A stretch of 64,000 nt of DNA from Heloderma charlesbogerti (Eukaryota; Chordata; Lepidosauria; Squamata; Helodermatidae), in assembly GCA_026122225.1 (NCBI GenBank), contig JANEZZ010002364.1, forward strand, positions 1 to 64,000, given 5' to 3'. The notes under the pieces were generated by a model. That model was not told the DNA's origin. It saw nothing but the letters and a program-made list of their open reading frames with translations, and did not search any database. The position numbers and the translations under genes were made by a program. Positions 1,004-61,955 of this stretch are shown in pieces. How positions within the stretch are numbered: position 1 is the stretch's first letter; each line of letters starts with the position of its first letter.

Positions 1004-1445
1004 GGGGCAACCCAACGCAAATAGCGTTACCCTTATTTTCACCGTAGTCTACGTAAAGATTTACGTAGACTACAGGGACCAAATAAGGAACACGAATGGC
1101 GGCTCCCTATGGGGGCTGCCATTCGCGTACGCGCTTTTTTTTTTTTTTTTTAAGTCACCCGTGATAGGCTACGTGATGATTAACGTAGCCTATCACTGCT
1201 GACTTTGCAGATCTAGCCGTGATAGGCTAACGTAAATCGTTATGTAGCCTATCACGGGCCTTTTTTTTTTTCTTCTTTTGAAGTTTACGGCCGGGGAGAC
1301 TGGGAGCTTCTCCCCGGCCTGAATTTCGGCCAGGCGAGGCGGGAAGCCTCCCCCCGGCCTGAGCTTCGGGGGGAGAATTGAAGCGCCTCCCCCCCCACCG
1401 CGAAGCAAGCTGCGAGACCAGGTAAGTGACTTTCGTACATCCCTA
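1004..1445 (+). mobile_element. PAL1: truncated palindrome-array hAT-like element, end B intact
   Basis: The copy begins inside a P4 palindrome (GCAAATAGCGTTACCC) and reads through a P3 palindrome (TAGTCTACG around 1047-1072), a P2 palindrome (about 1096-1130), and two P1 palindromes (about 1160-1195 and 1218-1257). A GC-rich region with the GGGGGGAGGCGC motif follows, then a 5' splice-site-like CCAG|GTAAGTG with GT at 1422. It closes with end B, CATCCCTA, at 1445. The whole end A half is missing; the left edge abuts unrelated sequence, so no target duplication can be tested. Confidence 0.75.
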
Positions 1446-2313
1446 GGTGGGGGGGAGGCGGTCCATTTCTCCCCCCGAAATTCTTGGTGGGTGGGGAGGC
1501 GTCCTGTCCCTCTCCACCAAAATTCTGGCCGGGGGGGAGGCGCCCCATCCTCCCCACCGAAATTCTGGCCGAGGGTGAGCGCCCCGCCTCTCCGGCCGCA
1601 AAAGTTCTTCTGCCGGGAAGAAGTAAAAAAAAAAAAAAAGCGTGATAGGCTACGTAAAGATTTGCGTAGCCTATCACTGCTAGATTTTCAAAAAACACCG
1701 TGACAGGCTACGTAAATCTTTACGTAGCCTATCACGGCTGACTTTGAAAAAAAAAAAGCACGTATGCAAATTTGCTTTCCTTTTTTGGCACGGGTAGTCT
1801 ATGTAAAGATTTACATAGACTACGGTGAATAAGGGCAACGCAAATATCGTTGCCTTTATTTTCGCTGTAGTCTACGTAAATCTTTATGTAGACTACCCGT
1901 GCCAAAATAAGGAACGCAAATGGCGGCGCCCATGGGCGCTGCCATTTGCGTACGCGCTTTTTTTTCTTCCCCCAATGTCAGCCGTGATAGGCTATGTAAA
2001 GATTTACGTAGCCTATCACGGTGTTTTTTGAAAATCTAGCAGTGGTAGACTACGCAAATCTTTACGTATCACTTTTTTGTTGTTGTTGTACTTGGAAATG
2101 GCAGCGGCAGCAGCCGGTCTGAAGACTGGCCGCCGCTGAACCACCGCCGAACAGCCACCAGGACCCGCCGCCGCGAGGGACATTCGCACGAGGTAAGTCC
2201 CATCCCGGGGGTGGCGGGGGGGTGGCGGACCATTTCTCCACCAATTTCGGGGGGCCGAATGCGTTGGCATTCGGCCTCCCAGAGATTCGTAGAGAAATTC
2301 TATGACATCCCTA
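1446..2313 (-). mobile_element. PAL2: palindrome-array hAT-like element, end B truncated
   Basis: It abuts PAL1 exactly: after CATCCCTA the sequence resumes in the GGTGGGGGGGAGGCG motif that normally lies about 45 bp inside end B, so the outer end B is missing or PAL1 landed in it. The array contains two P1 palindromes, then P3 (TAGTCTATG), P4, P3, P2 and a P1, followed by a GC-rich ATGGCAGCGGCAGC exon-like segment and an outward donor (GAG|GTAAGTC, GT at 2193). End A, with its GGCCGAATGCGTTGGC hairpin, finishes at 2313. The ATG frame is broken by TGA at codon 14. Confidence 0.8.
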
Positions 2314-2332
2314 CTTTCCTGAATTTGCGATT

Positions 2333-2625
2333 GCATTAAAATGCTTTTTTTCCCCCCAAAGTGTGCACTTTAAAATGCAGATTTATCAAAAAATATGCAT
2401 TTTCACACTTTAGGCAATGAAGGGAAAGTGTGCACTGTTGAAAAATGTCCATGTAAATGTGCATTTTCCTGTGAGAAACATGCATTTTCCCTGTTCAAAC
2501 AAAAAGCAAAACAGGTTGCAAATGAAAATGTGAGTGAGGTGAATTGAGCTTTGAAGTGGAGCTTGGAGAATGTCGGTGAGCTCGAGCATTCCTGGTTCTC
2601 CCATCTTTATGCAGATCTCACTTGT
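2333..2625 (+). mobile_element. AT450-like AT-rich element fragment
   Basis: Repeated GTGCATTTTC and TATGCATTTT words, a CTTGGAGAATGTCGGTGAGCTCGAG segment and a CATTCCTGG close match the right half of the AT450 family (compare 24960-25240 and 32307-32562). The left end is missing. Confidence 0.5.
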
Positions 2626-7102: not shown

Positions 7103-7839
7103 TAGGGATGTCAGAGAATTCCGTGACGGATCTCGGTGAGGCCAAATGCCAGTGCATTCGGCCCCCTGAAATCCGTCAAGGAATGAAGCCCCCGCCCCCC
7201 CAACCCACAAAAGGCACGCGGGATGAAGTGCCCGCCATGAAAAGCGTGCAAAACAGAGCACTTACCTGCTCCCATCTGCGCTGCTTTGCGAATGGCGGCC
7301 ATCCTGCGGCCGCCATTCGCTTCCTCCTCTTCATAGCTGTGATAGGCTACGTAAATATTTACATAGCCTATCACAGCTAATGCAGGGATGCCATTTGCGT
7401 CCCTGTGGAGGCCGTGATAGGCTACATAAGTATTTACATAGCCTATCATGACAGCGGGGGGGAACCCCAGCGTACGCAAGTGGAGGTGTCTACCGCCATT
7501 TGTGTACACTGGTTCCTTCCCCCCCCCTGCCGTGATAGGCTACATAAATATTTATGTAGCCTATCACGGCTCAATACAGGGATGCAAATGGCAGCAGCTA
7601 CGACAGCCGCCATTTGCGTCCCTGCAAGGCTGCCCAGCAGCCGGATGTCCGGCTGCTGGTGGCCGGAGTCGGCCGGCGGCTCCGCGGCTTGGCCAAGGAG
7701 CAGAGCCGGCCAGGCAGGATTCCGGGAGGAGGGACGGAGCGCCTGCCCCCCCATCGAGGATTCTGGGGGAGGGACGGAGTGCCTCCCCCCACCATGGATT
7801 GCCTGGCGTGGAGCCAGGTAGGTGTTTCGTACATCCCTA
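7103..7839 (+). mobile_element. PAL3: complete 737-bp palindrome-array hAT-like element
   Basis: Ends TAGGGATG and CATCCCTA are flanked by the identical 8-mer GTTCCTAG (7095-7102 and 7840-7847). End A at left shows the GGCCAAATGCCAGTGCATTCGGCC hairpin. A minus-strand donor-like GCAG|GTAAGT lies at 7264-7265. The core holds three P1 palindromes (about 7340-7377, 7409-7446, 7529-7570) alternating with P2-type hairpins. A long GC-rich stretch from the ATGCAAATGGC at about 7581 stays open to a right-hand donor CCAG|GTAGGT (GT 7818). There is no transposase frame, so it must depend on an enzyme encoded elsewhere. Confidence 0.85.
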
Positions 7840-9051: not shown

Positions 9052-9320
9052 GCCCTAGGTAGGGATATATGAAAGTGACTTACCTTTTGTGGATTATGTT
9101 GATGGGGGGGAGGCATTCCGTCCCTCCCCCTGGAATCCTGGCCAGGGGGGAGGCACTCCGTTCCTCCCCCTGGAATCCTTGAATGGCTGGCTGTGCTCCG
9201 CGGCAGCTCCATGGAGCAGCTGGCCAGGCCCAGCCTGGCCAGGCCAGAGCCGTTCGCAGCTGGATTTCCGGCTGCGGAGGGCTCTGGGTAAAAAAACAAA
9301 ACAAAACAAAAAAAGCGTAC

Positions 9321-9657
9321 GCAAATGGCGGCGGCTATGGCCGCTGCCATTTGCATTCCTTCTTTTTGGCCGTCTTAATCTACATAAATATTTACGTAGA
9401 CTATGTCAGCGAAAATCAAGGGGAATGCAAATAGCGTAGTGGGTGCTATTTGCGTCCCTTTTTCATTCACCATTTTAGCCTATGTAAATCTTTACGCAGG
9501 CTAAAACGGCGAATCAAAAGGGAACGCAAATAGCACCCGCTACGCTATTTGCATTCCCCTTGGTTTTCGCCGTCATAGTCTACGTAAATATTTATGTAGA
9601 TTAAGACAGTAAAAAGAAGGAACGCAAATGGCGGCGGCTGTAGCTGCCGCCATTTGC
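9321..9657. repeat. Concentric palindrome array (P2-P3-P4-P1-P4-P3-P2)
   Basis: Seven palindromes are ordered symmetrically: P2 9321-9354, P3 9374-9405, P4 9421-9458, centre 9470-9509, P4 9520-9558, P3 9571-9609, P2 9624-9657. The midpoints of the three outer pairs and of the central hairpin all fall at 9489-9491. The unit therefore folds either as seven small hairpins or as one long hairpin of about 168-nt arms. Arms of each palindrome differ at a few positions. Confidence 0.9.
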
Positions 9658-9812
9658 ATACGAGTTTTTTTTTTAAACGGACCCCCAACCATAATAGACT
9701 ACATAAAGATTTACATAGCCTATCACATCTTTTTTTTTTAAAACCTAGCCATGATAGGCTACGTAAATCTTTACGTAGCCTATCACATCTCCCCCCCCCC
9801 ACAAGCCTGGAA

Positions 9813-9902
9813 ATGGCGGTGGCGGCAGCCGGTCGCAAGACTGCCCGCCGCTGCTGCCGGAGCCGCCGCCAGAGCCGCCGCCACCCAGAAGATCCACCCC
9901 AG
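9813..9902 (+). other. First-exon-like open frame ending at a consensus splice donor
   Basis: ATG in GGAAATGG context opens 30 codons beginning MAVAAAGRKTARR and ending PEDPPQ. The frame runs exactly to CAG|GTAAGT. Comparable frames with whole codon numbers occur in PAL5, PAL6, PAL8 and PAL15, starting MAAAAAG or close to it. It is arginine- and alanine-rich because of GCC/CGC triplets. Coding status is unproven: other copies carry stops or a lost ATG. Confidence 0.4.
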
Positions 9903-10042
9903 GTAAGTCTCATCCCAGGGGGGATCCGCGGGGGGCACGGGGGTGGCAGGCCGTTCCGCCACAGATTTCAGGGGGCCGAATTCACTGGCATTCAGCCTCA
10001 CCGAGATCCGTGGTGGAATTCTCTGACATCCCTAGCCCTAGG

Positions 10043-10325: not shown

Positions 10326-10424
10326 ATAGGGATGTCAGAGAATTCCACCACGGACTGAAGTGGGATCGAATTCCCTTCAGTCTGTGCCACGGAATCCTCT
10401 GCGGAATGGCACCACGAGGTCCTC
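10326..10424 (+). mobile_element. PAL end A fragment (PAL16 subfamily)
   Basis: TAGGGATGTCAGAGAATTCC starts at 10326, followed by a hairpin around GAAGTGGGATCGAATTCCC and GCCACGGAATCCTCTGCGG. This matches the first about 95 bp of PAL16 at 60940. The element is then interrupted by an unrelated inverted repeat and never completed in this form. Confidence 0.7.
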
Positions 10425-10760
10425 CATGTCAGCACCCCACTTGCCCCCAGCTCAGCTTTGTATTTCCACATCCAGCTCATTAGCAAACCTCCTGTTAATT
10501 ATCTCACTGGGTGACTTTGGGCTGGACTCTAACCACTACACCATACTTCTGTTATATGAAACTCTTGAAGAAAAAGAGACAGTATAATGGAAAGTTCTTT
10601 CTGAAGCAGTCACACTTCACTTGTACAAATGCAGCATGAAGGGAAAGATCAGCAACCTTATCTTTGTCTGAATGAAAAGCACACTCTGCACATGCTCAGG
10701 GAATGGACAAAATGAGGAATAAACATACCAGGGAATATGAAGAACTATATTCTTCCATTA

Positions 10761-10791
<31 letters not shown>

Positions 10792-10939
10792 TCTCCCTCA
10801 ATCCAGCTGTTCCCTGGAAACCCCCCCCCCATTCACCCAAGGATCTTCTGAGATAACTAACAGGAAGTCTGATAATGAGCTGGATGTGGAAATACAAAGC
10901 TGAGCTGGGGGCAAGTGGGGTGCTGACATGTGTAGGAGT
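10425..10939. repeat. Long inverted repeat around a (TG)n-containing spacer
   Basis: Arms of about 85 bp (about 10425-10507 and 10849-10939) are near-perfect inverted copies, including GTCAGCACCCCACTTGCCCC and its complement, and CACATCCAGCTCATT and its complement. The spacer of about 340 bp includes a SINE-like fragment and a (TG)n run at 10762-10787. A third partial copy of an arm lies at 11027-11062. Confidence 0.8.
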
Positions 10940-11323: not shown

Positions 11324-11940
11324 TAGGGCTGACGGAGAATTTCTCCACGAATCTTTGGGAGGCCGAGCGCCGACACATTTGGCCCCCTGAAAGTGTTGGG
11401 GAAATTCTCCGCCGGCCCCCGCCCACCCCCAGGATGGGACTTACCTTCGGCGAATGTCCCTCTCGACGGCAGGTCTCGGCGGCGTTTCGGCGGGGGCAGC
11501 GGCTGGTCTCCCGACCGGCTGCCGCTGCCGCCATTGCAAAAAAAAAAGTAAAGTAAAAAAAAACACAAACACACCCATGATAGGCTACATAATGATTTAC
11601 GCAGCCTATCACGGCTAGATTTCCAAAGTCAGCTGTGATAGGCTACGTAAATCATCACGTAGCCTATCACAGGTGACTTTGAAAAAAAAAAAAAAGCACG
11701 TACGCAAATGGCGGCGCCCATGGGGTGCCGCCATTTGCATTCCTTAGTTTGGCACGTCTAGTGTACGTAAAGATTTACATAGACTATGGCGAAAATAAGG
11801 GAACGTCCGCCCCAGGTAAGCCTCATCCCAGAGGGAATCCCCCGGGGGGGGGGCAGGCCATTCCACCATGGATTTCGGGGGCCGAATGCCAGTGCATTCG
11901 GCCTCACTGAAATCTGTGGCAGAATTCTCCGCCATCCCTA
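11324..11940 (+). mobile_element. PAL5: chimeric element with two A-type ends
   Basis: The left end (TAGGGCTGACGGAG) and the right end (GAATTCTCCGCCATCCCTA) are both A-type with their hairpins, unlike the usual A/B pairing. Donors face outward: minus CG..AAG|GTAAGTC at 11443-11444 and plus CCCAG|GTAAGC with GT at 11816. P1 palindromes at about 11577-11614 and 11632-11670, P2 at about 11704-11738 and P3 at about 11756-11790 follow. The array then breaks at about 11804 straight into the right donor region. Flanks (CTGTTGTT, ATACATTT) do not match, so it is a recombinant or end-deleted copy. Confidence 0.75.
11445..11534 (-). other. First-exon-like open frame in PAL5
   Basis: Minus-strand ATG in GCAATGGCGG context opens 30 codons beginning MAAAAAGRETSRC and ending GHSPK. 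The frame runs exactly to the GTAAGT donor at 11444. Same layout and reading phase as at 9813-9902. Confidence 0.4.
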
Positions 11941-13524: not shown

Positions 13525-14031
13525 CAGGGATGTGTGAACCCACCTCCATCTGGGTTCTCCAAGTGCCCGCCTAGCCCCTGCCCCCACTTACTGATCCCCG
13601 GACTGTGCTCCAGCCCCTCCTGAGTTGGCGAACAGCTGGCACTCAACCTGGTGGCCTCGTCAAGCTCTGCAGCCACCATTTTTTTGAAAAATAAAATGGC
13701 AATAGCAAAACTGTGCAGATTTGTGTATGTGTGAAAATGTGCAGCTTCATAAAAATGCACATTTCGCGCATATGCAAATATGCTCATTTGCAAAATGTGC
13801 ATTTTTGCACATACGCAAATATGTGTATTTGTGCAATCACCATTTTATTTTTCAAAAAATGGAGACCACAGAGGTCAACGAGGCCACCGGGGTGACTGTG
13901 GGCCATTTGCTGGGCAAGGGCATGGGGCAAGTGGGGTCAGGGGCTCGGCAAGTGGGGATCAGGGGTACGGGAGGTGCGGGGGGGGGTTCTGCTGGATTCC
14001 TGAACAGAATTGGGCACCCACGCCATCCGTA
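13525..14031 (+). mobile_element. HX500 element: 507-bp hairpin-rich hAT-like transposon
   Basis: CAGGGATGTGTG at left and GCCATCCGTA at right are flanked by ATCTTGAG on both sides (13517-13524 and 14032-14039). The centre (about 13670-13870) is a long palindrome: CCACCATTTTTTTGAAAAATAA faces TTATTTTTCAAAAAATGGAG. Inside lie tandem hairpins built from TGCACATT, GCGCATATGCAAATATG and similar words. The outer parts are C-rich. The sibling copy is at 60919-61955. Confidence 0.85.
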
Positions 14032-14191: not shown

Positions 14192-14990
14192 TAGGGATGT
14201 ACGAAACTCCCCTTACCTGGCTCCGCCGGGTTCCCCTGGGGGGGAAGCGCTCCGTCCCTCCCCCCGGAATCCTCGCTGGTGGGGAGGCACTCCATCCCTC
14301 CCCCCTGGAATCCTGGCCGGCTGTCTCCGCTCCGCTCCGTGGGGATTCCGCGGAGCCGCCGGCCAGCTCTGCCAGCAGCCGGACATCCAGCCACTGGCTA
14401 GCAGGGACGCAAATGGTGGCGGCCATAGCCGCTGCCATTTGCATCCCTGTAGTCAGCCGTGATAAGCTACGTAAAGACTTGATAGTCAGCTGTGATAGGC
14501 TACGTAAAGACTTGTAGTCAGCCGTGATAGGCTATGTAAAGACGGCGAAAATAAGGGGGAATGCAAATAGCGTCCGCTATGCTATTTGTGTTCCCCTTAT
14601 TTTCGCCGTCTTAGTCTACATAAATGTTTACGTAGACTAAGACGGCCAAAAATAAGCAACGCATTTGCGTACGCGGGGTTTTTTTAAAGCCAGACGTGAT
14701 AGGCTACGTAAGTCTTTACGTAACCTATCACATCTTGTAAAAAAAAAAACAAAACCCCGACAAGACTGCAAATGGCGGCAGCAGCCGGTTGGAAGACCAG
14801 CTGCCGCCGCCGCCACTGCTGCCGCTGGAGCCTCCGCCACCCGGAAGATCCGCCCCAGGTAAGTCTCGTCCCGGGGGGGATCCTCGGAGGGGTGGGAGGT
14901 GGCAGGCCGTTCTGCCACAGATTTTGGGGGGCCGAATGCACTGGCATTCAGCCTCACTGAGATCCGTAGCAGAATTCTCTGCCATCCCTA
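14192..14990 (-). mobile_element. PAL6: palindrome-array element, both ends present
   Basis: End B (TAGGGATGTACGAAAC) at left, end A (GAATTCTCTGCCATCCCTA) at right. Donors: minus CCAG|GTAAGG at 14215-14216 and plus CCCCAG|GTAAGTC with GT at 14859. The core has a P2 (about 14408-14445) and then three shortened P1 half-units in tandem (GTGATAAGCTACGTAAAGAC, GTGATAGGCTACGTAAAGAC, GTGATAGGCTATGTAAAGAC). P4 (about 14560-14595), P3 (about 14612-14642) and P1 (about 14697-14732) follow. The half-units look like collapsed hairpins. Flanks TTTGGGAG and GGGAGGAG are not a clear duplication. Confidence 0.8.
14772..14858 (+). other. First-exon-like open frame in PAL6
   Basis: ATGGCGGCAGCAGCC opens 29 codons (MAAAAGWKTSCRR... 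to HPEDPPQ) running in phase to CAG|GTAAGT. Its C-terminal PEDPPQ equals that of the PAL4 frame, showing common descent; selection for coding is not shown. Confidence 0.4.
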
Positions 14991-15916: not shown

Positions 15917-16126
15917 CAGTGGAGGCTGGTGGCTCCGATGTCAGTAGGGCTGTGAATCCACTCTGGGTTTCAGTCAGAACACTAAATGAGCTATCCAAGG
16001 TGCTGAACCCAATCCCCAGAATGGATTCATCACCTTGGATAGCTCCATTAGACTTCTGAATGGTTCTGACTGAAACTCAGAGCAGATCTACAGCCCCACT
16101 GACATTGGAGCAACCAGCCTCCACTG
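15917..16126. mobile_element. HP216 hairpin MITE, second copy
   Basis: CAGTGGAGGCTGGTGGCTCC at the left is answered by its complement at the right end (ACCAGCCTCCACTG). GAGCTATCCAAGGTGCTGAA faces CACCTTGGATAGCTCC near the centre (about 16020). Flanking 8-mers do not match. Confidence 0.8.
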
Positions 16127-19407: not shown

Positions 19408-19824
19408 TAGGGATGTTCATCACTGGGAAATTCAGGTGTTGTTTTTTTACTTGATGGAATTTTGTGGAATGTACAGCTCAATTTAGGATTGTGAGCCAAG
19501 CTTCTGGGTTTCCCCCTAACTCTGGGAACTTTTTTGCACATTTTTTCAGAGGTTCTGCAATTTGAGCAAATTTCTGAACAATTTTCACAAATTACGGCCA
19601 AATTTGTGCAAATTGCTCAGAAATTGTACAAATGCTTATAAATTTGTGTAAATTGTGGAACCTGCAGGAAAAAAATGCACAAAATGCCTGGAAAATCTGT
19701 GAACTACCCTGACTTACTGCAGATTGAGTCAGGCACCACAGCGAGAACCGAAACAAAGTCCAGGGGGCCTGCCAAGGAAAACTCATCAAACTCCACCCCC
19801 AAAGGGATTTCGCCAACATCCCTA
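19408..19824. mobile_element. hAT-like MITE with long imperfect internal palindrome
   Basis: TAGGGATGTTC at left, CCAACATCCCTA at right. Inside, GAGGTTCTGCAATTTGAGC faces GTAAATTGTGGAACCTGC, with the centre near 19595 (AATTACGGCCAAATTTG). No matching 8-bp flanks (ATGCAAAC, AACTACTC). Confidence 0.6.
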
Positions 19825-24790: not shown

Positions 24791-25240
24791 TAGGGATGTA
24801 TGAGAAATTTGTTTTAGTCCATTTTTGGTCAGGATTTACCCACTTCACACCTTCTGGGTTGAGCATGGACTCAGACACAATCTATGGTCAAAATCCATAC
24901 ATTTCCAAGCTTGCAATGTGATTCACGGACCCTGAAAATGCATTTGACAGCATGAATGCATACTAACAATGTGCATTACAAATGAGTACTTTTGAAAAAA
25001 TTTGAAATATATATATACACAAATACACTTTAATCCATGGGAGAAGGCTGCATACATTTCAAAGATGAGCACAATTGATGCATATGTTTGGAAAAATCTT
25101 CACGAAAATGCATACAAATTTTCATGCAAAAAGAAAGAAACAAAGCTCACAATCTGATATGCACTCAAGTCAGAATGAGCTTCAGGATGGAATTCAGAGA
25201 ACTTTGGTAAGCTCGAGTTCTGCTCATTCACACATCCCTA
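24791..25240 (+). mobile_element. AT450 element, about 450 bp
   Basis: TAGGGATGTATGAGAAATTTG at left (21-base start of the family) and CATTCACACATCCCTA at right. The interior contains GCATGGACTCAGA, TCCAAGCTTGCAATGTGATTC and repeated AATGCAT words. Flanks GTTGTGGC and GTTAAGAC agree at 5 of 8. A GTAAGC motif faces outward at 25207. No transposase frame. Confidence 0.75.
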
Positions 25241-29548: not shown

Positions 29549-31004
29549 TAGGGTTGGCGGAGAATTTCTCCACGAATCTTTGGGAGGCCGAGCGCTGACG
29601 CATTCAGCCCCCCGAAAGTGTTGGGGAAATTCTCCGCCGGCCCCCCGCCCCCCAGGATAGGACTTACCTTCGACGAATGTCCCTCTCGGCGGCGGGTCCC
29701 GGCAGCGTTTCGGCGGCGTTTCGGCGGGGGCAGGGGCGGTGGCCAGTCTCCCGACCGGCTGCCACCGCCACCATTGCAAAAAAAAAGTAAAGTAAAAAGA
29801 AACAAAACACACCCGTGATAGGCTACGTAATGATTTACGTAGCCTATCATGGCTAGATTTGCAAAGTCAGCTGTGATAGGCTATGTAAATCGTCATGTAG
29901 CCTATCACGGGTGACTTTGAAAAAAAAAAGCGCATACGCAAATGGCGGCACCCATGGGGAGCCGCCATTTGCGTTCCTTATTTGGGCAGGGGTAGTCTAC
30001 GTAAAGATTTACGTAGACTACGGTGAAAATAAGGGTTAGGGATGGCGGAGAATTTCTCCCCGAAACTTCGGGGGGCCGAGCGCCAACTCCGAAATCCTCC
30101 AAACCCCCCCGCCCCCCACACCCCCCCCCGGGAAGGGATTTACCTTCACCGAATGTCCCTCCTGGCGGTGTTCAAACGGGGTGGGAGTGGCAGCTCGTCT
30201 TTCGACTGGCTGCCGCTGCCGCCATTGCAATAAAAGGGGGAAAAAAGCCCCCTGATAGGCTACGTGACGATTAACGTAACGTAATCGTCACATAGCCTAT
30301 CAGGGGGCATTTGTTTTTTGTTTTTTAAACTTTCACGTTCGCGGCGGGGCGAGGTGGAAAGCCTCCTCCCTGGCCTGAATTTCGGCCAGGGCGAGGCGGG
30401 AAGCCTCCCCCCCGGCCTGAATTTTGGCCGGGGCGAGGCGGGAAGCCTCCCCCCCGGCCTGAACTTCACGGGGGGAGCAGCGAAGCGCCTCCCCCCCACC
30501 GCGAACAAGCTTCAGCGAAAGGTAAGGGACTTTCGTCCACCCCTAAGGGCAATGCTATTTGCGTTGCCCTTATTTTTGCCGTAATCTACGTAAATCTTTA
30601 CGTAGACTAGATATACCAAAATAAGGAACGCAAATGGTGGTCCCCATGGGACGCGCTTTTTTTTTCAAAGTCACCCGTGATAGGCTACGTGATGATTTAC
30701 ATAGCCTATCATAGCTGACTTTGGAAATCTAGCCGTGATAGGCTACGTAAATCGTTACGTAGCCTATCACGGGTGTGTGTGTGTGTTTTACTTTTTTTTT
30801 CACGGCCCGGTAGTTGGGACGCTCCTACCCAGCCTGAATTTCACCGGCGAGGGATGGGGCGCCTCCCCCCCGGCCTGAATTTTGGCTGGGCGAGGCAGGG
30901 CGCCTCCCTCCCCCTCGCCTGAACTTCGGGAGGAGAAGCGAAGCGCCTCCTCCCCACCGCGAAGCAAGCTGCAGGACAAGGTAAATCCCTTTTGTCCATC
31001 CCTA
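29549..31004 (+). mobile_element. PAL7: 1,456-bp PAL element containing a second PAL
   Basis: Left end TAGGGTTGGCGGAGAATTTC, right end TTGTCCATCCCTA, flanked by TTTCCAAG on both sides (29541-29548, 31005-31012). Minus-strand donor AG|GTAAGTC at 29666-29667; right donor AAG|GTAAAT at 30981. Without the inner insert (30037-30545) it is about 950 bp: end A, exon-like region, two P1 palindromes (about 29815-29852, 29872-29912), P2, P3, [insert in P4], P3 (about 30575-30612), P2, two P1, end B. Its own target is an AT450 element, giving three nested layers. Confidence 0.85.
30037..30545 (+). mobile_element. PAL7n: short PAL element inserted inside PAL7
   Basis: TAGGGATGGCGGAGAATTTC start, CACCCCTA end. 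It lies within the P4 palindrome of PAL7: host sequence reads AAAATAAGGG to the left and AAGGGCAATGC to the right. Only a shared AAGGG is visible, not a clean 8-bp duplication. The core is a single enlarged palindrome of about 60 bp (about 30248-30308) with GATAGGCTACGTGACG arms. It also carries tandem GAATTT(C/T)GGCCGGGGCGAGGCG units at 30371-30460. Donor AAG|GTAAGG at 30532. Confidence 0.75.
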
Positions 31005-31142: not shown

Positions 31143-31843
31143 TCAGGATGGATGAATCCTTTACCTGGCTTTGCGCAGGGGCATCCGCGGTGGGGGGGAG
31201 GTGCTCTGTCCCTCTCCCCGGAATCCTCCCTGGCCGGCTTCGCTCTGTGGTGGCCCCGCAGAGCCGCTGGCTAGGGCTGTCCGCAGCCGAAGTTCCAGCT
31301 GTGGCCGGGCTGCTGCGGCCACAAATGGAGGCTGTCGTAGCAGCCGCCATTTACGCCCTGCCAGGCTGCTGTGATAGGTTATGTAAGTATTTACATAGCC
31401 TATCATGGTAAAGGCAGCCATGCAAATGGCATAGTGGCCACCATTTGCGTGGCTGCCTTTACCGTGATAGGCTATGTAAATTCTTATGTAGCCTATCACG
31501 GAGAGAGCAGGGACACAAACGGCATAGCGGCTGCCATTTGCGTCCCTGCTCTTTGCCGTGATAGGCTACGAAAATACTTACATAGCCTATCACGGCAGCC
31601 TGGCAGGATGCAAATGGCAGCTGCTATGACGGCCGCCATTTGCGGCCACAGCAGCCAGCCGAGAGACCAGCCACCACTGCCAGAGCCAGAGCTGCCACCA
31701 GAGCCGCCACCTCCGCATCCACCCCAGGTAAGCTTCGTCCCAGGAGGATTCTGTGGGGCGGGAGGGGGTGGGAGGCCATTCCACCACAGGTTTTGGGGGG
31801 CCAAATGCACTGAAATCTGTGGCGGAATTCTCCGCCACCCCTT
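31143..31843 (-). mobile_element. PAL8: 701-bp PAL element inserted in a LINE
   Basis: Decayed ends TCAGGATG and CACCCCTT are flanked by CTCTGAGG (31135-31142, 31844-31851). Four P1 palindromes (about 31370-31407, 31459-31500, 31555-31594 and a shorter form) alternate with P2 hairpins (about 31420-31450, 31513-31545, 31609-31645). Donors: minus CCAG|GTAAAG at 31163-31164 and plus CCCCAG|GTAAGC with GT at 31728. An open frame of 225 codons (31371-32048) crosses the array and runs on into the LINE; it is a chance fusion. Confidence 0.85.
31614..31727 (+). other. First-exon-like open frame in PAL8
   Basis: ATGGCAGCTGCTATGACGG opens 38 codons, proline-rich at the end (LPPEPPPPHPPQ), in phase to CAG|GTAAGC. 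Same PPQ ending as in PAL4 and PAL6. Confidence 0.35.
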
Positions 31844-37622: not shown

Positions 37623-38540
37623 TAGGGGTGCACGAAAGTCCCTTACCTGTCCTCGAAGCTTTTTGCGGTGGGGGGGAGGCACTTCGCTGCTCCCCCCGTG
37701 AAGTTCAGGCTGGGGGGGGAGGCTTCCCGCCTCGCCTGGCCGAAATTCAGGCTGGGGAGGAGGCGCCTCGCCTCGCCCGGCCGCGAACTAAAAAGTAAAA
37801 AAAAAAAAACGCCCCCGTGATAGGCTACGTGACCATTAACGTAGCCTATCACGGCTAGATCTGCAAAGTCAGCTGTGATAGGCTACGTAAATCGTCATGT
37901 AGCTTATCACGGGTGACTTAAAAAAAAAAAAGCACGTACGCAAATGGCGGCCCCCATAGGGAGCCGCCATTCGCGTTCCTTATTTGGTCGCTGTAGTCTA
38001 CGTAAAGATTTACGTAGACTACGGCGAAAATAAGGGCAAGGCAAATAGCATGCCCTTATTTTTGCCGTAGTCTACGTAAATCTTTACGTAGACTAGACGT
38101 GCCAAAATAAGGAACGCAAATGGCGGCGCCCATGGGCCGCCGCCATTTGCGTATGCGCTTTTTTTTTTCAAAGTCACCCGTGATAGGCTACGTGACGATT
38201 TACGTAGCCTATCATGGCTGACTTTGGAAATCTAGCCGTGATAGGCTACGTAAATCGTCACGTAGCCTATCACGGGTGGTTTTTTTTTTTTACTTTAGTT
38301 TTTTTTTTTTGCAATGGCGGCGGCGGCAGCTGGTCAGGAGACCGGCCGCCGCCCCCGCCCCCGCCAAACCACCGCTGAACCGCCGCCGGGACCCACTGCC
38401 GAGAGGGACATTCGCGGAAGGTAAGTTCCGTCCCGGGGGGGCGGGGGGCCGGGGGAGAATTTCCCAACCTACTTCAGGGGGCCAAATGCATCGGCACTCA
38501 GCTTCCCAAAGATTCGGGGAAAAATTCTCCACCATCCCTA
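37623..38540 (-). mobile_element. PAL9: 918-bp PAL element
   Basis: TAGGGGTGCACGAAAGTC at left, CTCCACCATCCCTA at right. Array: two P1 (about 37815-37855, 37875-37913), P2 (about 37940-37975), P3 (about 37992-38028), P4 short, P3 (about 38063-38100), P2 (about 38116-38152), two P1 (about 38177-38218, 38235-38277). The order is again mirror-symmetric. Donors: minus ACAG|GTAAGG at 37645-37646 and plus GAAG|GTAAGT with GT at 38421. Flanks ATCGGAGC and GATTCTAG do not match. The ATG frame at 38314-38420 is open to the donor but in another phase (107 nt). Confidence 0.82.
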
Positions 38541-40007: not shown

Positions 40008-40385
40008 ACCTACAGCACAATCCTTTGCACATGTTCTTACTCACAGGTAAGTGGTATAGGATCGCACCCTTACAACGTAATCCTATGCAGGTCCAGTGCA
40101 GACTGGTGGCTTCGATTTCAGTGGGGCTGTGAATCCACACTGGGTTTCAGTCAGAACCAGCCAGAACTCTGAAGGAGCTATCCAAGGTGCTGAACCCTAC
40201 CCCCAAACTGGGCTCAGCACCTTGGATAGCTCCTTCAGAGTTCTGCTGATTCTGACTGAAACCCAGCACGGATTCACAGCCCCACTGAAATCAGGGCCAC
40301 TAGCTTCCACTGTTCAGGTCTACTCAAAAGCAAGTCTGATTGCTTTCCATGGAACTTACTCCCTCATGAGTGTGTAGAGGATTGC
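40008..40385. mobile_element. Small palindromic repeat pair hosting an HP216 MITE
   Basis: CACAATCCTTTGCACATG...GTATAGGATCGCACC is one hairpin of the CAATCCTATGCA family. Directly after it AATCCTATGCAGGTC is interrupted by HP216 and resumes as TTCAGGTCTACTCAAAAGCAAG...AGAGGATTGCAGC. Confidence 0.65.
40094..40312. mobile_element. HP216 hairpin MITE, complete, 219 bp
   Basis: CAGTGCAGACTGGTGGC start and CTAGCTTCCACTG end; arms GGAGCTATCCAAGGTGC and GCACCTTGGATAGCTCC are exact complements. Flanks TGCAGGTC (40086-40093) and TTCAGGTC (40313-40320) match at 7 of 8. Confidence 0.88.
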
Positions 40386-42336: not shown

Positions 42337-43095
42337 TAGGGATGTCAGAGAATTCCACCATGGATCTCAGTGAGGCCGAATGCCAGTGCATTTGGCCCCC
42401 CGAAATCCATGGTGGAACGAAGCCCCCCGCCCCCCACCCCACGAAAGGCATGCGAAACGGAGCACTTACCTGCTGCCGTTCGCGCTGCTTTGAGAATGGC
42501 GGCTGCATCTGCGGCCACCATTCGCTTCCTCATTATAGCCATGATAGGCTACATAAATACTTACATAGCCTATCACAGCTAACGCAGGGATGCCATTTGC
42601 ATCCCTGAGGGGGCTGTGATAGGCTACATAAGTATTTACGTACCCTAACATGGCAAAAAAAAAAAAAGCGAATGCAAATCATGGCGGCTACGGCGGCCAC
42701 CATTTGCATTCCCTTTTTTTGCCGTTTTAGCCTACGTAAATATTTATGTTGGCTATTATGGCAAAAGAAAAAAGGGAACGCAAATGGCGTAGTGGCCGCC
42801 ATTTGCGTTCCTTTTTTTTTTTTTTTTTTCCGTGATAGGCTACGTAAATATTTACGTAGCCTATCATGGCAAAATACAGGGATGCAAATGGTGGCGGCTA
42901 CGGCTGCCGCCATTTGCATCCCTGCAGGCTGCCCAGTGGCTGGATGTCTGGCTGTGGGCGGCCCCGGTTGGCAGCTCTGTGGAATCTCCATGGAGCGGAG
43001 CCAGCTGGAGAGAATTTTGGGGGGAGGGACGGAGCGCCTCCCTCCCACCACAAATGTCACCCTTCAAAAAGGTAAGTGACTTTTGTGCATCCCTA
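42337..43095 (+). mobile_element. PAL10: 759-bp PAL element inserted in a LINE
   Basis: TAGGGATGTCAGAGAATTCC to TTGTGCATCCCTA. The flank after it, ATTGGAGG (43096-43103), corresponds to ATTGGAGC two bases before the left end, so a slightly eroded 8-bp duplication is likely. P1 palindromes at about 42538-42579, 42614-42655 (decayed) and 42829-42869. P2 at about 42673-42712, 42776-42808 and 42880-42920; a P3-like hairpin at about 42721-42762. Donors: minus CAG|GTAAGTG at 42468-42469 and plus AAAAAG|GTAAGTG with GT at 43072. Confidence 0.82.
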
Positions 43096-45975: not shown

Positions 45976-46339
45976 CAGGGATGTATGAGAAATTTGTTTC
46001 AGTTTATTTTGATCAGGATTTTATCCAAGTTGCACATTCTGGACTGAACATGGATTCAGATGCAATCTGTGGTAAAAGCCTGTATATTTCTGAGCTTGCA
46101 ATGTGATTTGCAGACACACATCCCCCATGCATTTGTCATCATGCGTAAATTTCAAAAATGTGCACATCATTCCATACACTTGGAAAAATACACACATAAA
46201 TAAATATACAGGGATTTTCATGAGAAAAAGAAAAAGAAAAAAACCTCGCAATCTGATACAGACTAGAGTCGGACCTAGTGTCAAGATGGAATTCAGAGAA
46301 CTTCAGTAAGTTTGGGTTTTGCTGATTCACACATCCCTA
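45976..46339 (+). mobile_element. AT450 element, complete, 364 bp
   Basis: CAGGGATGTATGAGAAATTTG to GATTCACACATCCCTA, flanked by ATTATCAC (45968-45975, 46340-46347). GTAAGT faces outward at 46306. No frame of interest. Confidence 0.88.
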
Positions 46340-49110: not shown

Positions 49111-50086
49111 TAGGGATGTACGAAAGTCACTTACCTTTTCACAGCTTGGATTCACGGTGGGGGGGAGGCGCTCCATCCCTCCCCCCAGAATCCTCCCTGG
49201 GCCGGCTTTGCTCTGCAGCGGCTCCATGGAGCCACTGGCCAGGGCCGTCCGCAGCTGGAGTTCCGGCCATGGACGGGCTGCTGCGGACGCAAATGGCGGC
49301 CACTGTAGTGGCCGTCATTTGCATCCTGCTAAGCTGCCATGATAGGCTACGTAAGTATTTATGTAGCCTATCATGGCAAGCCAAAAAAACACACACATAC
49401 ACAGCGTACGCAAATGGCGATGGCTACAGTGGCCACCATTTGCGTTCCCTATTTTTAGCTGCTTTAGCCTATGTAAATATTTACGTAGACTATTACGGCA
49501 AAAAAAAAGGGGAACGCAAACAGTGTAGTGGGCGCCATTTGTGTCCCTCCCCCCCATTTTAGCCTATATAAATATTTACGTAGGCTATTACGGCAAAAAA
49601 AAAAAAAGGAACGCAAATAGTGCCCACTATGCTATTCGCATTCCCCTTGTTTTTCGCCGTAATGGCCTACGTAAATATTTACGTAGGCTAAAACAGCTAA
49701 AAATAGGGAAAGCAAATGGCAGCTGCTGTAGCCGCCACCATTTGCGTACGCTGTTTTTTGGGGGGGGGGGCTTGCCATGATAGGCTACATAAATTCTTCC
49801 GTAGTTTATCACGGCCTCCGCAGGGACGCAAAAGGCGTCCCTGTATTAGCTGTGATAGGCTACGTAAGTATTTATGTAGCCTATCACGGCTATGATGAAG
49901 AAGCGAATGGCAGCCGCAGGGCGGCCGCCATTCGCAAGTCAGCGCAGACGGAAGCAGGTAAGTGCTCCGTTTCGGGCACCTTTTGTGGGGGGGGTGGGGG
50001 CTTCGTTCCGCCATAGATTTTGGGGGGCTGAATGCACTGGCATTCGGCCTCACCGAGATCCATGGCGGAATTCTCTGACATCCCTA
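49111..50086 (-). mobile_element. PAL11: 976-bp PAL element with concentric palindromes
   Basis: TAGGGATGTACGAAAGTC to TCTCTGACATCCCTA, flanked by GCATAAAT (49103-49110) and GAATAAAT (50087-50094), 7 of 8. Donors: minus AAAAG|GTAAGTG at 49133-49134 and plus GCAG|GTAAGTG with GT at 49958. The concentric block at 49410-49745 is listed separately. P1 hairpins at about 49338-49376, 49774-49815 and 49850-49888 lie outside it. Confidence 0.88.
49410..49745. repeat. Concentric palindrome array in PAL11
   Basis: P2 49410-49443, P3 49458-49499, P4 49510-49547, centre 49554-49593, P4 49608-49644, P3 49656-49697, P2 49712-49745. Outer pair midpoints fall at 49577-49578 and the central hairpin at 49573; the offset is explained by A-run length differences. 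Same order as PAL4. Confidence 0.9.
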
Positions 50087-50535: not shown

Positions 50536-50979
50536 TAGGGATGTGTGAATCAGCAAAACTCCAGCTCACCAAATTTGTCTGAATTCCATGTACTGACTTG
50601 AGTCCATACTGTATTGCAAGCTGTATGTTTGTTTGTTTTCTTTTTGCATCAAAATCCATGCACATTTTTTGTGCATATTTTCCCAAATGTACACATCAGT
50701 TGTGCACACCTTTGTAATGTGCACATTCTTCATTAGGAAAAATTAAGCATATTTGTGTACATTTTTCAAAAGTACCCATTCTTAGTGCACGTTCCTCAAA
50801 TGTCCAACACATTTTTTATTTATTTGTTTATCTGCTTCACAAAGCATATTACAAGCTCAGAAATGTACAGATTTTTTTTAACACAGATGGTGTCCAAGTC
50901 CATGTTTGGTCCAGAAGGCATGAACTGGCTAAACTCTGTTAAAAAAAATTAACTGAAACAAATTTTTCATACATCCCCA
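50536..50979 (-). mobile_element. AT450 element, complete, 444 bp, inverted
   Basis: TAGGGATGTGTGAATCAGC to TTTTTCATACATCCCCA, flanked by ATTATTCA on both sides (50528-50535, 50980-50987). It is the reverse of the copy at 24791. Minus-strand GGTGAGC faces outward at 50568-50570. Confidence 0.88.
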
Positions 50980-53615: not shown

Positions 53616-54357
53616 TAGGTCACTTACCGAAAGTCATTTACCATTTAACGAAATGTGATTTGAGGTGGGGGGGAGGCGCTCTGTCCCTCCCCCTGAAATT
53701 CTGGCTGGGGGGGAGGCGCTCCGTCCCTCCCCACCGAATCCTGGTGGGCGGGTTCGCAAATGGCAGCGGCCGTAGCCACCGCCATTTGCATCCCTGCAGT
53801 CAGCCATGATAGGCTACGTAAATGTTTACGTAGCCTATCACGGCTGAGTAAAAAACAAAACAAAACCCGTGCATGCGCAAATGGCAGCGCCTATGGGCAC
53901 CGCCATTTGCGTTCCTTCTTTTGGCACGTCTATTCTACATACGTAGACTAGACGTGCCAAAATAAGGAACGCAAATGGCGGCACCCATGGGCACCGCCAT
54001 TTGCGTACACGCAGTTTTTTTTTTTACTCAGCCATGATAGGCTACGTAAACATTTACGTAGCCTATCACGGTATTTTTTAAAAATCTAGCCGTGATAGGC
54101 TACGTAAATCTTTACGTAGCCTATCACGTTTTTTTGTTTTTTTACTGGAAATCGCGACGGCGGCAGCCCATCGGTAGACTGGCTGCCGCCGCTGCCGCAC
54201 CGCTGCTGGAGCCGCTGCCGCCAGGAAGGTTCGCCCAAGGTAAGTCCCATCTTGGGGGGGGCGGGGGGGCAGACCATTTTGCCACCGATTTCGGGGAGCC
54301 AAATGTGCTGGCATTCGCCCTTCCCGAGATTCGTGGCAAAATTCTCTGACATCCCTA
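53616..54357 (-). mobile_element. PAL12: PAL element with eroded end B
   Basis: The left end reads TAGGTCACTTACCGAAAGTC in place of TAGGGATGTACGAAAGTC; the right end is CTCTGACATCCCTA. P2 (about 53757-53792), P1 (about 53803-53844), P2, P3 reduced to TCTACATACGTAGACTAG, P2, two P1 (about 54029-54070, 54088-54128). Donor AAG|GTAAGTC at 54240. The usual ATGGCGGC before the donor is ATCGCGAC here. Flanks are ambiguous (CTCC-rich on both sides). Confidence 0.78.
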
Positions 54358-56788: not shown

Positions 56789-57677
56789 TAGGGGTGGGTG
56801 AATGTATCAGTTTCACTTTCCACCACATTTGGCCGCCATTTGGCTCCAGCCAGACTGCCGTGATACCTATCATGGCAGCCCCCCCAAAAAAAACAGCGTA
56901 AGCAAATGGCGGTGGCTACAGTGGCCGCCATTTGCGTTCCATATTTTTCGCCGTTTTAGCCTATGTAAATATTTACGTAGCCTATCACGGGAAGCCAAAA
57001 AAACCAACAAAAAAAACCAGTGTAAGCAAATAGCGGCGGCTATGGCAGCCGCCATTTGCATTCTCTTTTTTTTGCTGTTTTAGCTGACGTAAGTATTTAC
57101 GTAGGCTATTACAGCGAAAAAAAGGGGAACGCAAATAGTGTAGTGGGTGCTATTTGCGTTCTTTTCTCTTTTTTTTGCCGTAATAGCTTACGTAAATATT
57201 TATGTAGGTTAAAATGGCAAAAAAAAGAGGAACGCAAGTGGCACCCACTACACCATTTGTGTCCCCCTTTTTTTTCGCCGTAATAGCCTACGTAAATACT
57301 TATGTTGGCTAAAACAGCAAAAAAAAGAGAATGCAAATGGCGGCTGCCATAGCTGCTGCTATTTGCTTACACTGTTTTTTTTGTTGGTTTTTTTGGCTTG
57401 CCATGATAGGCTATGTAAATACTTATGTAGCCTATCACGGCAAACAGCAGGATGCAAATGGCGGCTGCGGCAGCCAGTTGAAAGACCAGCCGCCGCTGCC
57501 TCCGGAGCCGCCGCTGGAGCTGCCGCTGCCGGAACATCTGCCATAGGTAAGCTTCATCCCGGGGGGGATTCCGCAGAGGAGCGGGGGGGAGGCCGTTCCA
57601 CCATGGGTTTTGGGGGAGCCAAATGCCAGTGCATTCGACCTCACTGAAATCCGTGGTGGAATTCTCTGCCATCCCTA
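56789..57677 (-). mobile_element. PAL13: 889-bp PAL element, largest concentric palindrome
   Basis: TAGGGGTGGGTGAATG at left, TCTCTGCCATCCCTA at right. The left subterminal part is shortened: a P1 is reduced to GCCGTGATACCTATCATGGC at about 56868. Donor ATAG|GTAAGC with GT at 57547. The frame from ATGGCGGCTGCGG hits TGA at codon 8. Flanks ACAACAGC and TCTACAAT do not match. Confidence 0.8.
56950..57440. repeat. Concentric palindrome array in PAL13
   Basis: From outside in: P1/P3 hybrid about 56950-56990, poly-A spacer with CCAACAAAAAAAACCAG, P2 57026-57059, P3 about 57071-57115, P4 57124-57161, centre about 57177-57218, P4 57229-57265, P3 about 57278-57318, P2 57333-57366, mirrored poly-T spacer with CTG...GTTGG, P1 about 57397-57440. 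Pair midpoints fall at about 57195-57197. Even the spacers are inverted copies. Confidence 0.88.
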
Positions 57678-57829: not shown

Positions 57830-58582
57830 TAGGGATGGCAGAGAATTCCGCCACAGATTTCAGTGAGGCCGAATGCACTGGCATTCATCCCCCAAAATCC
57901 ATGGCGGAATGGCCTGCCCACCCCGTGGATTCCCCCTGGGATGAAGCTTACCTGGAGTGGATGTTCCAGCTGTGGTGGCTGTGGCGGCAGCTGGTCTTTT
58001 GACCACCTGCCGTGGCTGCCATTTGCATCCTGGTCTTTGCCATGATAGGCTACATAAGTATTTATGTAGCCTCTCATGGCTAGGCAAAGAAAACACACAA
58101 CGGTGTATACAAATGGCAGCGGCTATGGCGGCCACCATTTGCGTTCCCTATTTTTTGCCTTTTTAGCCTACATAAATATTTATGTAGGCTAAAACAGTGA
58201 AAAATAGGGAACGCAAATGATGGCCGCCGTAGCCGCTGCCATTTGCGTATGCCATTTTTTTTTTTGCCTAGCCATGATAGGCTGCATAAATACTTACATA
58301 GCCTATCACGGCAGCCTGGCTGGACACAAATGGCGACCACTACGGCGGCTGCCATTTGCGTCTGCAGCAGCCCACCCACAGCCGGAACTCCAGGTGTGGA
58401 CGGCCCTGGCCGGCTGCTCCGCAGAGCCGCTGTGGAGCAGAGCCGGAAGGGCAGGATTCCGGGGGGGGGGAGGACTGGATTGCCTCCCCCCCATTGAGGA
58501 TTCCGTGGGGAGGCACAGAGCGCCTCCCCCCCACACCATGAATCAAGTCCGCGAAAAGGTAAGTGACTTTCATACATCCCTA
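57830..58582 (+). mobile_element. PAL14: 753-bp PAL element inserted in CR1
   Basis: TAGGGATGGCAGAGAATTCC to TTCATACATCCCTA; flanks CCTTATTT and CTTTTTTT agree at 6 of 8. Donors: minus CCAG|GTAAGC at 57950-57951 and plus AAAAG|GTAAGTG with GT at 58559. P1 hairpins at about 58039-58081 and 58267-58312, P2 at about 58109-58144, 58212-58248 and 58327-58362, and a central P3-like hairpin at about 58157-58200. Mirror order P1-P2-P3-P2-P1 about 58178. The minus exon-like frame at 57952-58022 is open but out of the usual phase. Confidence 0.83.
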
Positions 58583-58590
58583 CTTTTTTT

Positions 58591-60073: not shown

Positions 60074-60081
60074 GGTGAATG

Positions 60082-60903
60082 TAGGGATGTCAGAGAATTT
60101 TGCCACAAATCTCGGGGAGGCCGAATGCCAGCGCATTCGGCCCATGAAATCAGTGGCGAAATGGTCTGCCACCCCTCCCGCCACCCCCGGGACGGGACTT
60201 ACCTTGGGCAAACCTCCCTGGCGGCGGCGGCAGCGGCGGCCGGTCTTCCGACTGGCTGCCGCCGCTGCCATTTCTAAGTTAAAAAAACCCAAACACACGT
60301 GATAGGCTATGTAAAGATTTACATAGCCTATCACGGCTAGATTTTTAAAAACTACCATGATAGGCTAGGTAAATGTTTACGTAGCCGATCATGGCTGAGT
60401 TAAAAACAAAAACAAAAACTGTGCATACGCAAATGGCAGCGCCCATGGTGGCCGCCATTTGCATCCCTTATTTTGGCATGTGTAGTCTACATAAACATTT
60501 ACGTAGACTACGGCGAAAATAAGGGGAACGCAAATAGCGTTCCCCTTATTTTCACCGTAGTCTACGTAAATGTTTACATAGACTACACGTGCCGAAATAA
60601 GGAACGCAAATGGCGGTGCCCATGGGCGCCGCCATTTGCGTACGTGCGGGTTTTTTTTTAACTCAGCCATGATAGGCTACGTAAACATTTACGTAGCCTA
60701 TCACGGCTGACTGCAGGGACACAAACAGCGGTGGCTACGACCGCCGCCATTTGCAGATCCGGCCGGCCAGACAAGCCATTAGGTTTCACAGTGGGAGGGA
60801 CGGGACGCCTCCCCCTGGCCAGAATTTGGGGGGGAGGGACGGAGCGCCTCCCCCCCCCACGAATCAAATTTTGTCACAGGTAAGTGACTTTTGTACATCC
60901 CTA
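60082..60903 (+). mobile_element. PAL15: complete 822-bp PAL element
   Basis: TAGGGATGTCAGAGAATTTT to TTTGTACATCCCTA, flanked by GGTGAATG (60074-60081, 60904-60911). Array: P1 about 60299-60336, P1 about 60354-60394, P2 about 60426-60464, P3 about 60480-60517, P4 about 60524-60552, P3 about 60558-60593, P2 about 60607-60642, P1 about 60667-60708; mirror order about P4. Donors: minus CCAAG|GTAAGTC at 60201-60202 and plus ACAG|GTAAGTG with GT at 60881. Confidence 0.88.
60203..60271 (-). other. First-exon-like open frame in PAL15
   Basis: Minus-strand ATGGCAGCGGCGGCAGCC opens 23 codons, MAAAAASRKTGRR to GGLPK, in phase to AAG|GTAAGT. Very close to the PAL5 and PAL4 frames. Confidence 0.4.
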
Positions 60904-60918
60904 GGTGAATGTCACCCT

Positions 60919-61955
60919 TAGGGATGGTGTGGGTGCCTGTAGGGATGTCAGAGAATTCCGCCACAGACTGAAATGGGATCAAATTCCCTTTAGTCCATGC
61001 CACGGAATCCTCTGCGAAACGGCACCATGAGGTCCTGTGGAGCCAGCAATCGTGGCTTTTTTTTTTCATCCTCAAAGAGTTGCAAAATTTTCAGAAATAA
61101 AAACATTGTGTAGTATATTCTGATAATAAATACGTAAGGTTTTTTTTTTTAAAAAAAATGAATTGTGCTCACCACCTTGTTTGTGGGTGTTTCTTTTAAA
61201 TTGAAATCCTCGGTCTTGGTTTACTTTCAGCCAAAACACTTCCTCTTCCTAGGGGCTTCCCATAAGAAGGCTGTCTTAGGTGTGCCTGAGTGATAAACTA
61301 TTTGTTTAAAGCAACGCAGTTTTAATGAAAGAAAAAACCTTTTAAAATTATCATGCTGGTCATGGAGCACTGGTTGCAAACTGCGGAAATCAAGCGGCAC
61401 GGAAGGTACACAATTCATACATCCCTAGGCGCCCAATTCCATCTGAGAATCTGGCGGAACCCTGCCTGCCTGCACCCCTGAACCCCACTCACTGAGCCCC
61501 TGCCCCCGCTCACCCCCTGCCTACACTCAGTGAGCAGCCCACACTAACCCTGGCACACTATGTCAAGCTCCTCAGCCGCCATTTTTTTGAAAAATAAAAT
61601 GGCAATCGCAAAATGCCTACATTTGCGTATGCATGAAAATGCGCATTGGCAAAAATTGCGCATACTTGCGTATGCAGAAATGAGCGTTTTTTGCAAATGC
61701 ACATACTGTATTTGCATATGTGCAAAAATGCACATTTTTGCAAAGATGTGCATTTTCGCGCATACTCAAATATGCAATCACCGTTTTATTTTTCAAAAGA
61801 TCATGACCATGGAGCTTGATGAGGCCTCTAGGGTGAGTGCAGGCTGCTCACCAAATGTGGGAGAATGTCAAATGCAGTCTGCGGACCAGTGAGTGGGGGC
61901 AGGGTCTGGGTGGGTGTCTGGAGAACCCAGAGGGGGGTGGGTTTGCAAATCCCTA
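60919..61955 (-). mobile_element. HX500 element, second copy, split by PAL16
   Basis: TAGGGATGGTGTGGGTGCC (60919-60937) is the counterpart of the right end of the copy at 13525. It resumes after PAL16 as GCGCCCAATTCC and ends GTTTGCAAATCCCTA at 61955. Exact duplication GTCACCCT lies on both sides (60911-60918, 61956-61963). The core (about 61575-61800) is the GCCATTTTTTTGAAAAATAA...TTATTTTTCAAAA palindrome with GCGCATACTTGCGTATGC-like hairpins. Confidence 0.87.
60940..61427 (+). mobile_element. PAL16: 488-bp PAL subfamily nested in HX500
   Basis: TAGGGATGTCAGAGAATTCC to TTCATACATCCCTA. Flanks GGTGCCTG (60932-60939) and GGCGCCCA (61428-61435) both derive from GGTGCCCA expected from the HX500 sequence, so an 8-bp duplication with three transitions is supported. 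It lacks the P1-P4 array and instead carries sequence shared with 11096-11260. Confidence 0.75.

Follow-up and report, generated by a model that had tools for sequence, protein, structure and literature searches.

PAL, a family of short palindrome-rich elements found in positions 1 to 64,000 of contig JANEZZ010002364.1 of Heloderma charlesbogerti (assembly GCA_026122225.1; this whole 64-kb stretch is hereafter called the window), shares single features with several described transposons, which are compared here as far as passages of the papers cited describe them. Mar, a hAT miniature inverted-repeat transposable element (MITE) of Drosophila, resembles PAL in its short non-coding copies of hundreds of base pairs, its 8-bp target duplications and its short tips. 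However, the inverted repeats of Mar are 11 bp long and its 610-bp body is AT-rich, whereas in PAL the two ends differ and the core is rich in CpG and made of nested palindromes; none of the five perfect duplications of PAL conforms to nnnTAnnn, the target site consensus of Mar (PMC3517528). Made1 is nearly palindromic, with a stable hairpin predicted, as is PAL, but it consists of a single 80-bp mariner-derived palindrome, whereas PAL contains many palindromes inside a larger one and is flanked by hAT-like duplications (PMC1784062). The foldback-like Galileo also has long inverted arms, for which the title of the paper reports multiple transposase binding sites; nevertheless, it belongs to the P-element superfamily and carries its long arms at the tips, whereas the long inverted repeat of PAL is internal (PMC3688188). 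At the hAT ends of Hermes (PMC10368747) and Kat1 (PMC4763223), repeats internal to the tips are important to the transposase, as they may be in PAL, and Hermes has unequal ends, one of them with a quasi-palindromic pair, the ends of PAL being unequal too (PMC10368747). On the other hand, a palindromic array in the body, such as PAL has, is not described in the passages on Hermes and Kat1 (PMC10368747, PMC4763223). Judged by title and the start of the abstract, none of the open-access literature matches listed concerned a palindrome of palindromes between unlike ends, and exact-pattern searches of viral contigs and genome contigs gave no matches. The hAT tips, the MITE format and the palindromic core are each known, and PAL probably adds a variant to an established class of transposon, without being something new in kind.

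The explanation that accounts for PAL with good probability is that it is a non-autonomous, foldback-like hAT MITE, moved in trans, whose core has grown by repeated inverted duplication. On the basis of end profiles and tips, the family comprises 16 copies in the window, some of them partial and one nested within another (E1a, E1b, E2, E3, E5 to E15 and E7in), and these are short, non-coding elements with terminal inverted repeats, as in MITEs. Two kinds of end were distinguished, since 16 A-ends and 13 B-ends align as two separate families, to which E1b adds one truncated B-end. The A-end starts with TAGGGATG[TG]CAGAGAATTCC and continues into a nested hairpin, covering about 95 nt in all (60082–60176 on the plus strand in E15), and the B-end starts with TAGGGATGTACGAAAGTCACTTACCT, followed in many copies by G-rich repeats of about 40 nt (the B tip of E15 lies at 60878–60903, plus strand). 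The tips TAGGGATG and CATCCCTA occur exactly 35 times in the window (14 and 21 times, respectively), several of these belonging to other families, and 102 times when one mismatch is allowed, versus 57.9 expected, a number reached in none of 100 shuffles. Non-nested copies with both borders measure 617–976 bp, and E7, with its nested copy, 1,456 bp. Two cousins, designated A′, lack the palindromic core. The first (10327–10930, plus strand) has the A tip of PAL, another hairpin and none of the 111 palindrome hits described below, and its right end is a guess, position 10930 being the end of an inverted-repeat arm. The second (E16A′, 60940–61427, plus strand) has an A-type tip and a B-like tip, without a target duplication (5/8). 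The original prediction of seventeen copies plus a loose end was therefore close to this recount; its two distinct, shared end regions are borne out, and the fifth of the window that it assigned to the family corresponds to 12,356 bp (19%) without the cousins and to 13,483 bp (21%, with 35 bp counted twice) with them.

The core is built of four palindromes, P1 to P4, whose profiles gave 111 hits at E<=1, all within PAL copies (44 for P1, 37 for P2, 23 for P3 and 7 for P4, six of the last being weak), and 91 hits at E<=0.01 by manual count of the table. A core like CTACGTAAAT joined to ATTTACGTAG is common to P1 and P3, and CGCAAAT to P2 and P4. A model-free count found 70 palindromes scoring >=13 in the window, some of them outside PAL, whereas every one of 15 local dinucleotide shuffles gave zero. 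That the pattern reflects chance, low complexity or an assembly artefact has a practically negligible probability: A-, T- and G-runs do stand between many core units, but shuffling yielded no such palindromes and perfect target duplications are found at five separate places.

In the fullest copies, the unit order P1-P1-P2-P3-P4-P3-P2-P1-P1 is a mirror image of itself. Alignment of the core to its own reverse complement extended over 345–556 nt, with an identity of 0.79–0.89, in eight of 15 copies, namely E1b (1446–2313, minus strand; B-P1-P1-P3-P4-P3-P2-P1-P1-A, with the first ~14 nt of B lost or overlapped), E3 (9060–10034, minus; B-P2-P3-P4-P3-(P4)-P3-P2-P1-P1-A), E7 (29549–31004, plus; A-P1-P1-P2-P3-[E7in]-P4-P3-P1-P1-B), E9 (37623–38540, minus; B-P1-P1-P2-P3-(P4-like)-P3-P2-P1-P1-A), E11 (49111–50086, minus; B-P2-P1-P2-P3-P2-P3-P3-P2-P1-P1-A), E13 (56885–57677, minus; P2-P3-P2-P3-P4-P3-P3-P2-P1-P2-A, the B-end missing), E14 (57830–58582, plus; A-P1-P2-P3-P2-P1-P2-B) and E15 (60082–60903, plus; A-P1-P1-P2-P3-P4-P3-P2-P1-P2-B). 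The left border of E13 was placed at its outermost palindrome. The nested E7in (30037–30545, plus) is a shorter A...B copy lying between P3 and P4 of E7. The unit order of E9 is fully mirrored, with the self-inverted alignment slightly off centre, whereas the comparison elements N2 and N3 (from a second family with the same tip) and E16A′ gave self-inverted alignments of merely 33–73 nt. When 56 palindromes with a usable, distinct mirrored partner were compared in 10 of the 16 copies (20 palindromes being skipped), complementarity to the mirrored partner reached 0.898 versus 0.799 to the palindrome's own other arm, and 0.884 versus 0.690 over the central 12 nt; the partner was favoured in 44 cases and the own arm in four, with eight ties. 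Additionally, asymmetric P3 centres are mirrored in E1b, E7 and E9 (AAAGATTT / AAATCTTT) and in E15 (AAACATTT / AAATGTTT). The core of the fuller copies thus amounts to a single long inverted duplication, whose arms hold smaller palindromes. In the simplest reading of this closer fit to the mirrored partner, inverted duplication took place on at least two levels, of which the larger is the younger. The alternation of different palindromes noticed in the original prediction is incomplete, as it left out the long inverted duplication with mirrored order. This nested duplication places PAL nearer to foldback elements and palindromic MITEs than the original prediction did, although the inverted repeat of 345–556 nt in the eight copies is internal and flanked by two unlike ends.

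Evidence of transposition comes from the target sites. A target duplication of 8 bp is a feature of the hAT superfamily (PMC3517528). Perfect duplications (8/8) flank five of the 14 testable PAL copies, namely E2 (GTTCCTAG), E3 (GCCCTAGG), E7 (TTTCCAAG), E8 (CTCTGAGG) and E15 (GGTGAATG), and E11 matches at 7/8; in E7, the duplication spans the whole 1,456-bp element despite the nested E7in. The target site consensus of Ac is nTnnnnAn, which the first and third of these duplications fit. None of the five fits nnnTAnnn, the consensus of Buster elements (PMC3517528). In most copies, TAGGGATG or a near variant is present at both ends, with loss on the B side in E1b, E12 and E13. The general hAT tip pattern is YARNG, to which the PAL tip, TAGGG, conforms. 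No hAT domain was found in the 10 open reading frames (ORFs) inside PAL copies and the eight ORFs elsewhere that were scanned with Pfam profiles, and a crude hAT signature was absent from six frames. No Pfam family was found at a meaningful score in the PAL ORFs, and protein searches with PAL frames gave no matches at E<=10 or, in another search, at E<=1. The earlier description of the family as hAT-like and devoid of any transposase-like frame agrees with these duplications and tips and with the ORFs tested.

The ends, the five target duplications, the unit order, the nested symmetry and the independent decay of P1 arms considered below are direct observations, and the course of events proposed for them is as follows. 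A hAT transposase encoded elsewhere would cut and paste PAL in trans, acting on an A-end shaped as a hairpin cap and a B-end formed by a short tip and, in many copies, the G-rich repeats. Short sequences would first have become the palindromes P1 to P4, the half-core P1-P1-P2-P3 would then have been inverted and duplicated around P4 into one long palindrome of palindromes, and various source copies, in which units had been gained, lost or shortened, would subsequently have transposed. The paired short motifs probably serve as arrayed sites to which the transposase or a host factor binds. In the hAT transposase Hermes, BED domains bind a quasi-palindromic subterminal pair, AAGT being an effective site, according to the passages of that paper (PMC10368747).

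Several results weigh against this explanation. A long symmetric core of comparable quality is missing from seven of the 15 copies: E1a (1004–1445, plus; P4-P3-P2-P1-P1-B, its undefined left end placed at the outermost palindrome, its B tip at 1445 standing head-to-head with E1b), E2 (7103–7839, plus; A-P2-P1-P1-P2-P1-P2-B), E5 (11324–11940, plus; A-P1-P1-P2-P3-A), E6 (14192–14990, minus; B-P2-three half-P1-P4-P3-P1-A), E8 (31143–31843, minus; B-P2-P1-P2-P1-P2-P1-P2-A), E10 (42337–43095, plus; A-P2-P1-(short P2)-P1-P2-P3-P2-P1-P2-B) and E12 (53618–54357, minus; B with its tip lost, then P2-P1-P2-(short P3)-P2-P1-P1-A). Self-inverted alignment covered 536 nt at an identity of 0.75 in E8, 100–284 nt in E1a, E2, E6, E10 and E12, and 578 nt at just 0.65 in E5, which has two A-ends. 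Long-range complementarity was measured on an optimised alignment with gaps, which flatters it somewhat. In addition, the remaining eight of the 14 testable copies match in register at only 0–6 of 8 positions (0/8 in E1b and E9, 1/8 in E10, 2/8 in E7in, 3/8 in E5, 4/8 in E6 and E12, and an imperfect 6/8 in E14). Sliding both borders by <=4 nt (81 offsets) brought E12 to 8/8 and E6, E10 (at a 2-nt shift) and E14 to 7/8, which is weak evidence because of the heavy scanning of offsets. No autonomous partner was seen among the 18 ORFs tested in the window. Finally, the palindrome arms resemble the transposon tip only weakly (p 0.023 for P2, from a 7-nt match, and p 0.58 for P1), although such a resemblance would be expected of binding sites, and the case for deriving the arms from the tip is likewise weak.

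The upkeep of the hairpins after insertion was evaluated from the decay of the copies. Over 61 P1/P3 copies, the arms matched at 13.4 of 16 positions versus 12.4 after permutation (0/10,000 as high), but the excess disappeared within P1, with 14.23 versus 14.11 in 39 copies (1658/10,000 as high) and 14.44 versus 14.47 in a strict set of 32 (6581/10,000). The excess over all 61 copies is therefore a difference between subtypes, and maintained P1 hairpins are ruled out: the P1 arms decay independently, so that pairing of the hairpins is not maintained once a copy has inserted. The symmetric subtypes were thus formed among the source copies, and each copy was free to decay after its insertion. 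An alternative in which selection on transcripts (as double-stranded RNA or small RNA precursors) keeps the nested hairpins, as when Made1 MITEs gave rise to hsa-mir-548 genes, is considered improbable, since these P1 results stand against it. It could draw on the very stable fold of the whole E9 as single-stranded DNA (−350.9 kcal/mol, z −32.8 versus 20 shuffles) and on the A-end hairpin, where, in 15 of 16 A-ends (E7in omitted), 22 cells changed on both sides versus 11.5 in shuffles and the covariation score was 0.219 versus 0.151 (0/500 as high in each case). However, kinship of the copies inflates both measures, and neither pairs with a double change (8 versus 7.1; 200/500) nor further pair types (21 versus 22.7; 459/500) were raised. 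A search of Rfam gave no matches.

The observed/expected CpG ratio is 0.86 in PAL DNA versus 0.17 outside it and 0.37 in the whole window. In a sample of 14/16 A-ends, 10/13 B-ends, 39/44 P1, 30/37 P2 and 18/23 P3, short palindrome hits being dropped, CpG transitions in P1 were 9.4 times as frequent as other C/G transitions; the corresponding ratios of 1.4–2.7 in A-ends, B-ends, P2 and P3 are mixed with subgroup differences and uninformative. The P1 value rules out a protected CpG island as the cause of the CpG richness, which thus reflects CpG-rich, fairly young copies.

A further feature of the ends is an outward-pointing motif. The splice donor consensus is AG/GTAAGT. Its core, GGTAAG, is present in 15 of 16 A-ends and 10 of 13 B-ends of PAL, with 25 occurrences in total versus 6.8 in dinucleotide shuffles (maximum 14 in 300), and all 25 lie near the ends and point outward, none inward. 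In E15, the outward AGGTAAGT is found at 60878–60885 (plus) in the B tip and at 60197–60204 on the A side, where it lies on the minus strand and reads ACTTACCT on the plus strand. Outliers are a distance of 483 in E7, which corresponds to the B-end of E7in, a motif 159 nt in from the end in E2 and one 6 nt from the lost tip in E12. This outward GGTAAG may serve either in binding of the transposase or as a splice donor for exit from the element. That ACTTACCT represents a transposase recognition site, its likeness to a splice donor being accidental, is a plausible explanation, if somewhat short of an even chance. The reverse complement TTACC is almost fixed in B-ends, at nt 19–22 in 11 of 13 (nt 21 in nine) and at or near the usual place in 12 of 13, within the consensus AAAGTCACTTACC, which forms an inverted AAGT/ACTT pair. 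Together with the Hermes parallel, this near-fixed position favours a transposase site. Among other TAGGGATG-like tips, three ends have CTTACC or CTCACC at nt 30, and two have CTCACC or CCCACC at nt 15. On the A side, however, TTACC lies at a variable distance of 104–130 nt from the tip (15/16 copies), its upstream context varies between subgroups, and it is absent from the first 181 nt of the A-end in both A′ cousins, which leaves some probability to the splice donor.

If the motif were a donor, PAL could be a mobile two-way exit cassette, with a core driving transcription in both directions and a strong outward donor at each end joining its transcripts to host exons, a reading that is unlikely. 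Besides the excess and orientation of GGTAAG and the CpG richness, it has in its favour that no other 8-column block of the A-end past the first 20 nt is as well conserved as ACTTACCT (0.91; rank 6/149; next 0.90), with AG preceding GTA in 16/16 A-ends, and that AATAAA/ATTAAA occurs only twice in PAL copies versus 21.8 times in shuffles. Nevertheless, descent from a common ancestor means that these motif counts are not independent; about 1.5 poly(A) hexamers would be expected in an ancestor of ~800 bp, so that zero is unremarkable, and the decay of P1 CpG makes the copies look methylated rather than like protected islands. Moreover, no acceptor was seen, and there is no coding frame: frames from ATG to the donor are of mixed phase, and a palindrome lies within the "exon", so that the A side is ruled out as a coding first exon. 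The mixed-phase frames and the lack of a meaningful Pfam family likewise speak against a gene-capturing (Pack-type) element. A shade less likely again is the proposal that PAL elements are mobile divergent promoters, in which paired factor-binding palindromes would be accompanied on each side by selected outward splice donors (U1 sites), insertions would seed spliced transcripts both ways and the core would have grown by repeated inverted doubling.

Other observations in the window concern the arrangement of the copies and their neighbours. PAL copies and cousins are clustered, with six of 16 neighbour gaps below 400 bp (p 0.006 versus random placement), in a test that takes in both cousins (the right end of the first being a guess) and the analyst-set split of E1a and E1b and omits the nested copy. 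A long low-complexity T-rich tract (112–586) lies upstream of the truncated E1a. The second TAGGGATG-tipped family (24791–25240, 45976–46339 and 50536–50979) has one end starting with TAGGGATGTGTGAATCAGCAAAAC and 8/8 duplications in two of its three members (N2 and N3). Two ends, CAGGGATGTGTGAACCCACC and TAGGGATTTGCAAACCCACC, found at 13525–13819 and 61709–61955, each with a nearby palindrome of the TGCACATTTTTGCA type, perhaps belong to another hAT-like family with a palindromic core. Related palindromes with GAGCTATCCAAGGTGCTGAACCC occur at 15945–16062, adjoining a TAGGGCTG tip, and at 40162–40245, and a TAGGGATG...CATCCCTA pair 417 bp apart (19408–19824) encloses a palindrome at 19569–19625, with no target duplication visible by eye. 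At 62319–62936, an ORF encodes the C-terminus of a CR1-like reverse transcriptase; among the best 120 of 566 matches, the best named ones are turtle proteins (59–65% identity), and short metagenome sequences score higher, with up to 76% identity. The window looks vertebrate by its CpG ratio and sauropsid by these matches, which lend no particular support to a squamate origin.

A palindromic MITE such as Made1 consists simply of two terminal repeats around a few bases, whereas PAL displays at least two levels of inverted duplication. As these levels can be read in copies with clean ends, the steps by which a palindrome grows could be placed in order from sequence alone. Additionally, if the outward donors work, PAL would supply alternative first exons in portable form, with a density of one per ~4 kb in the window.

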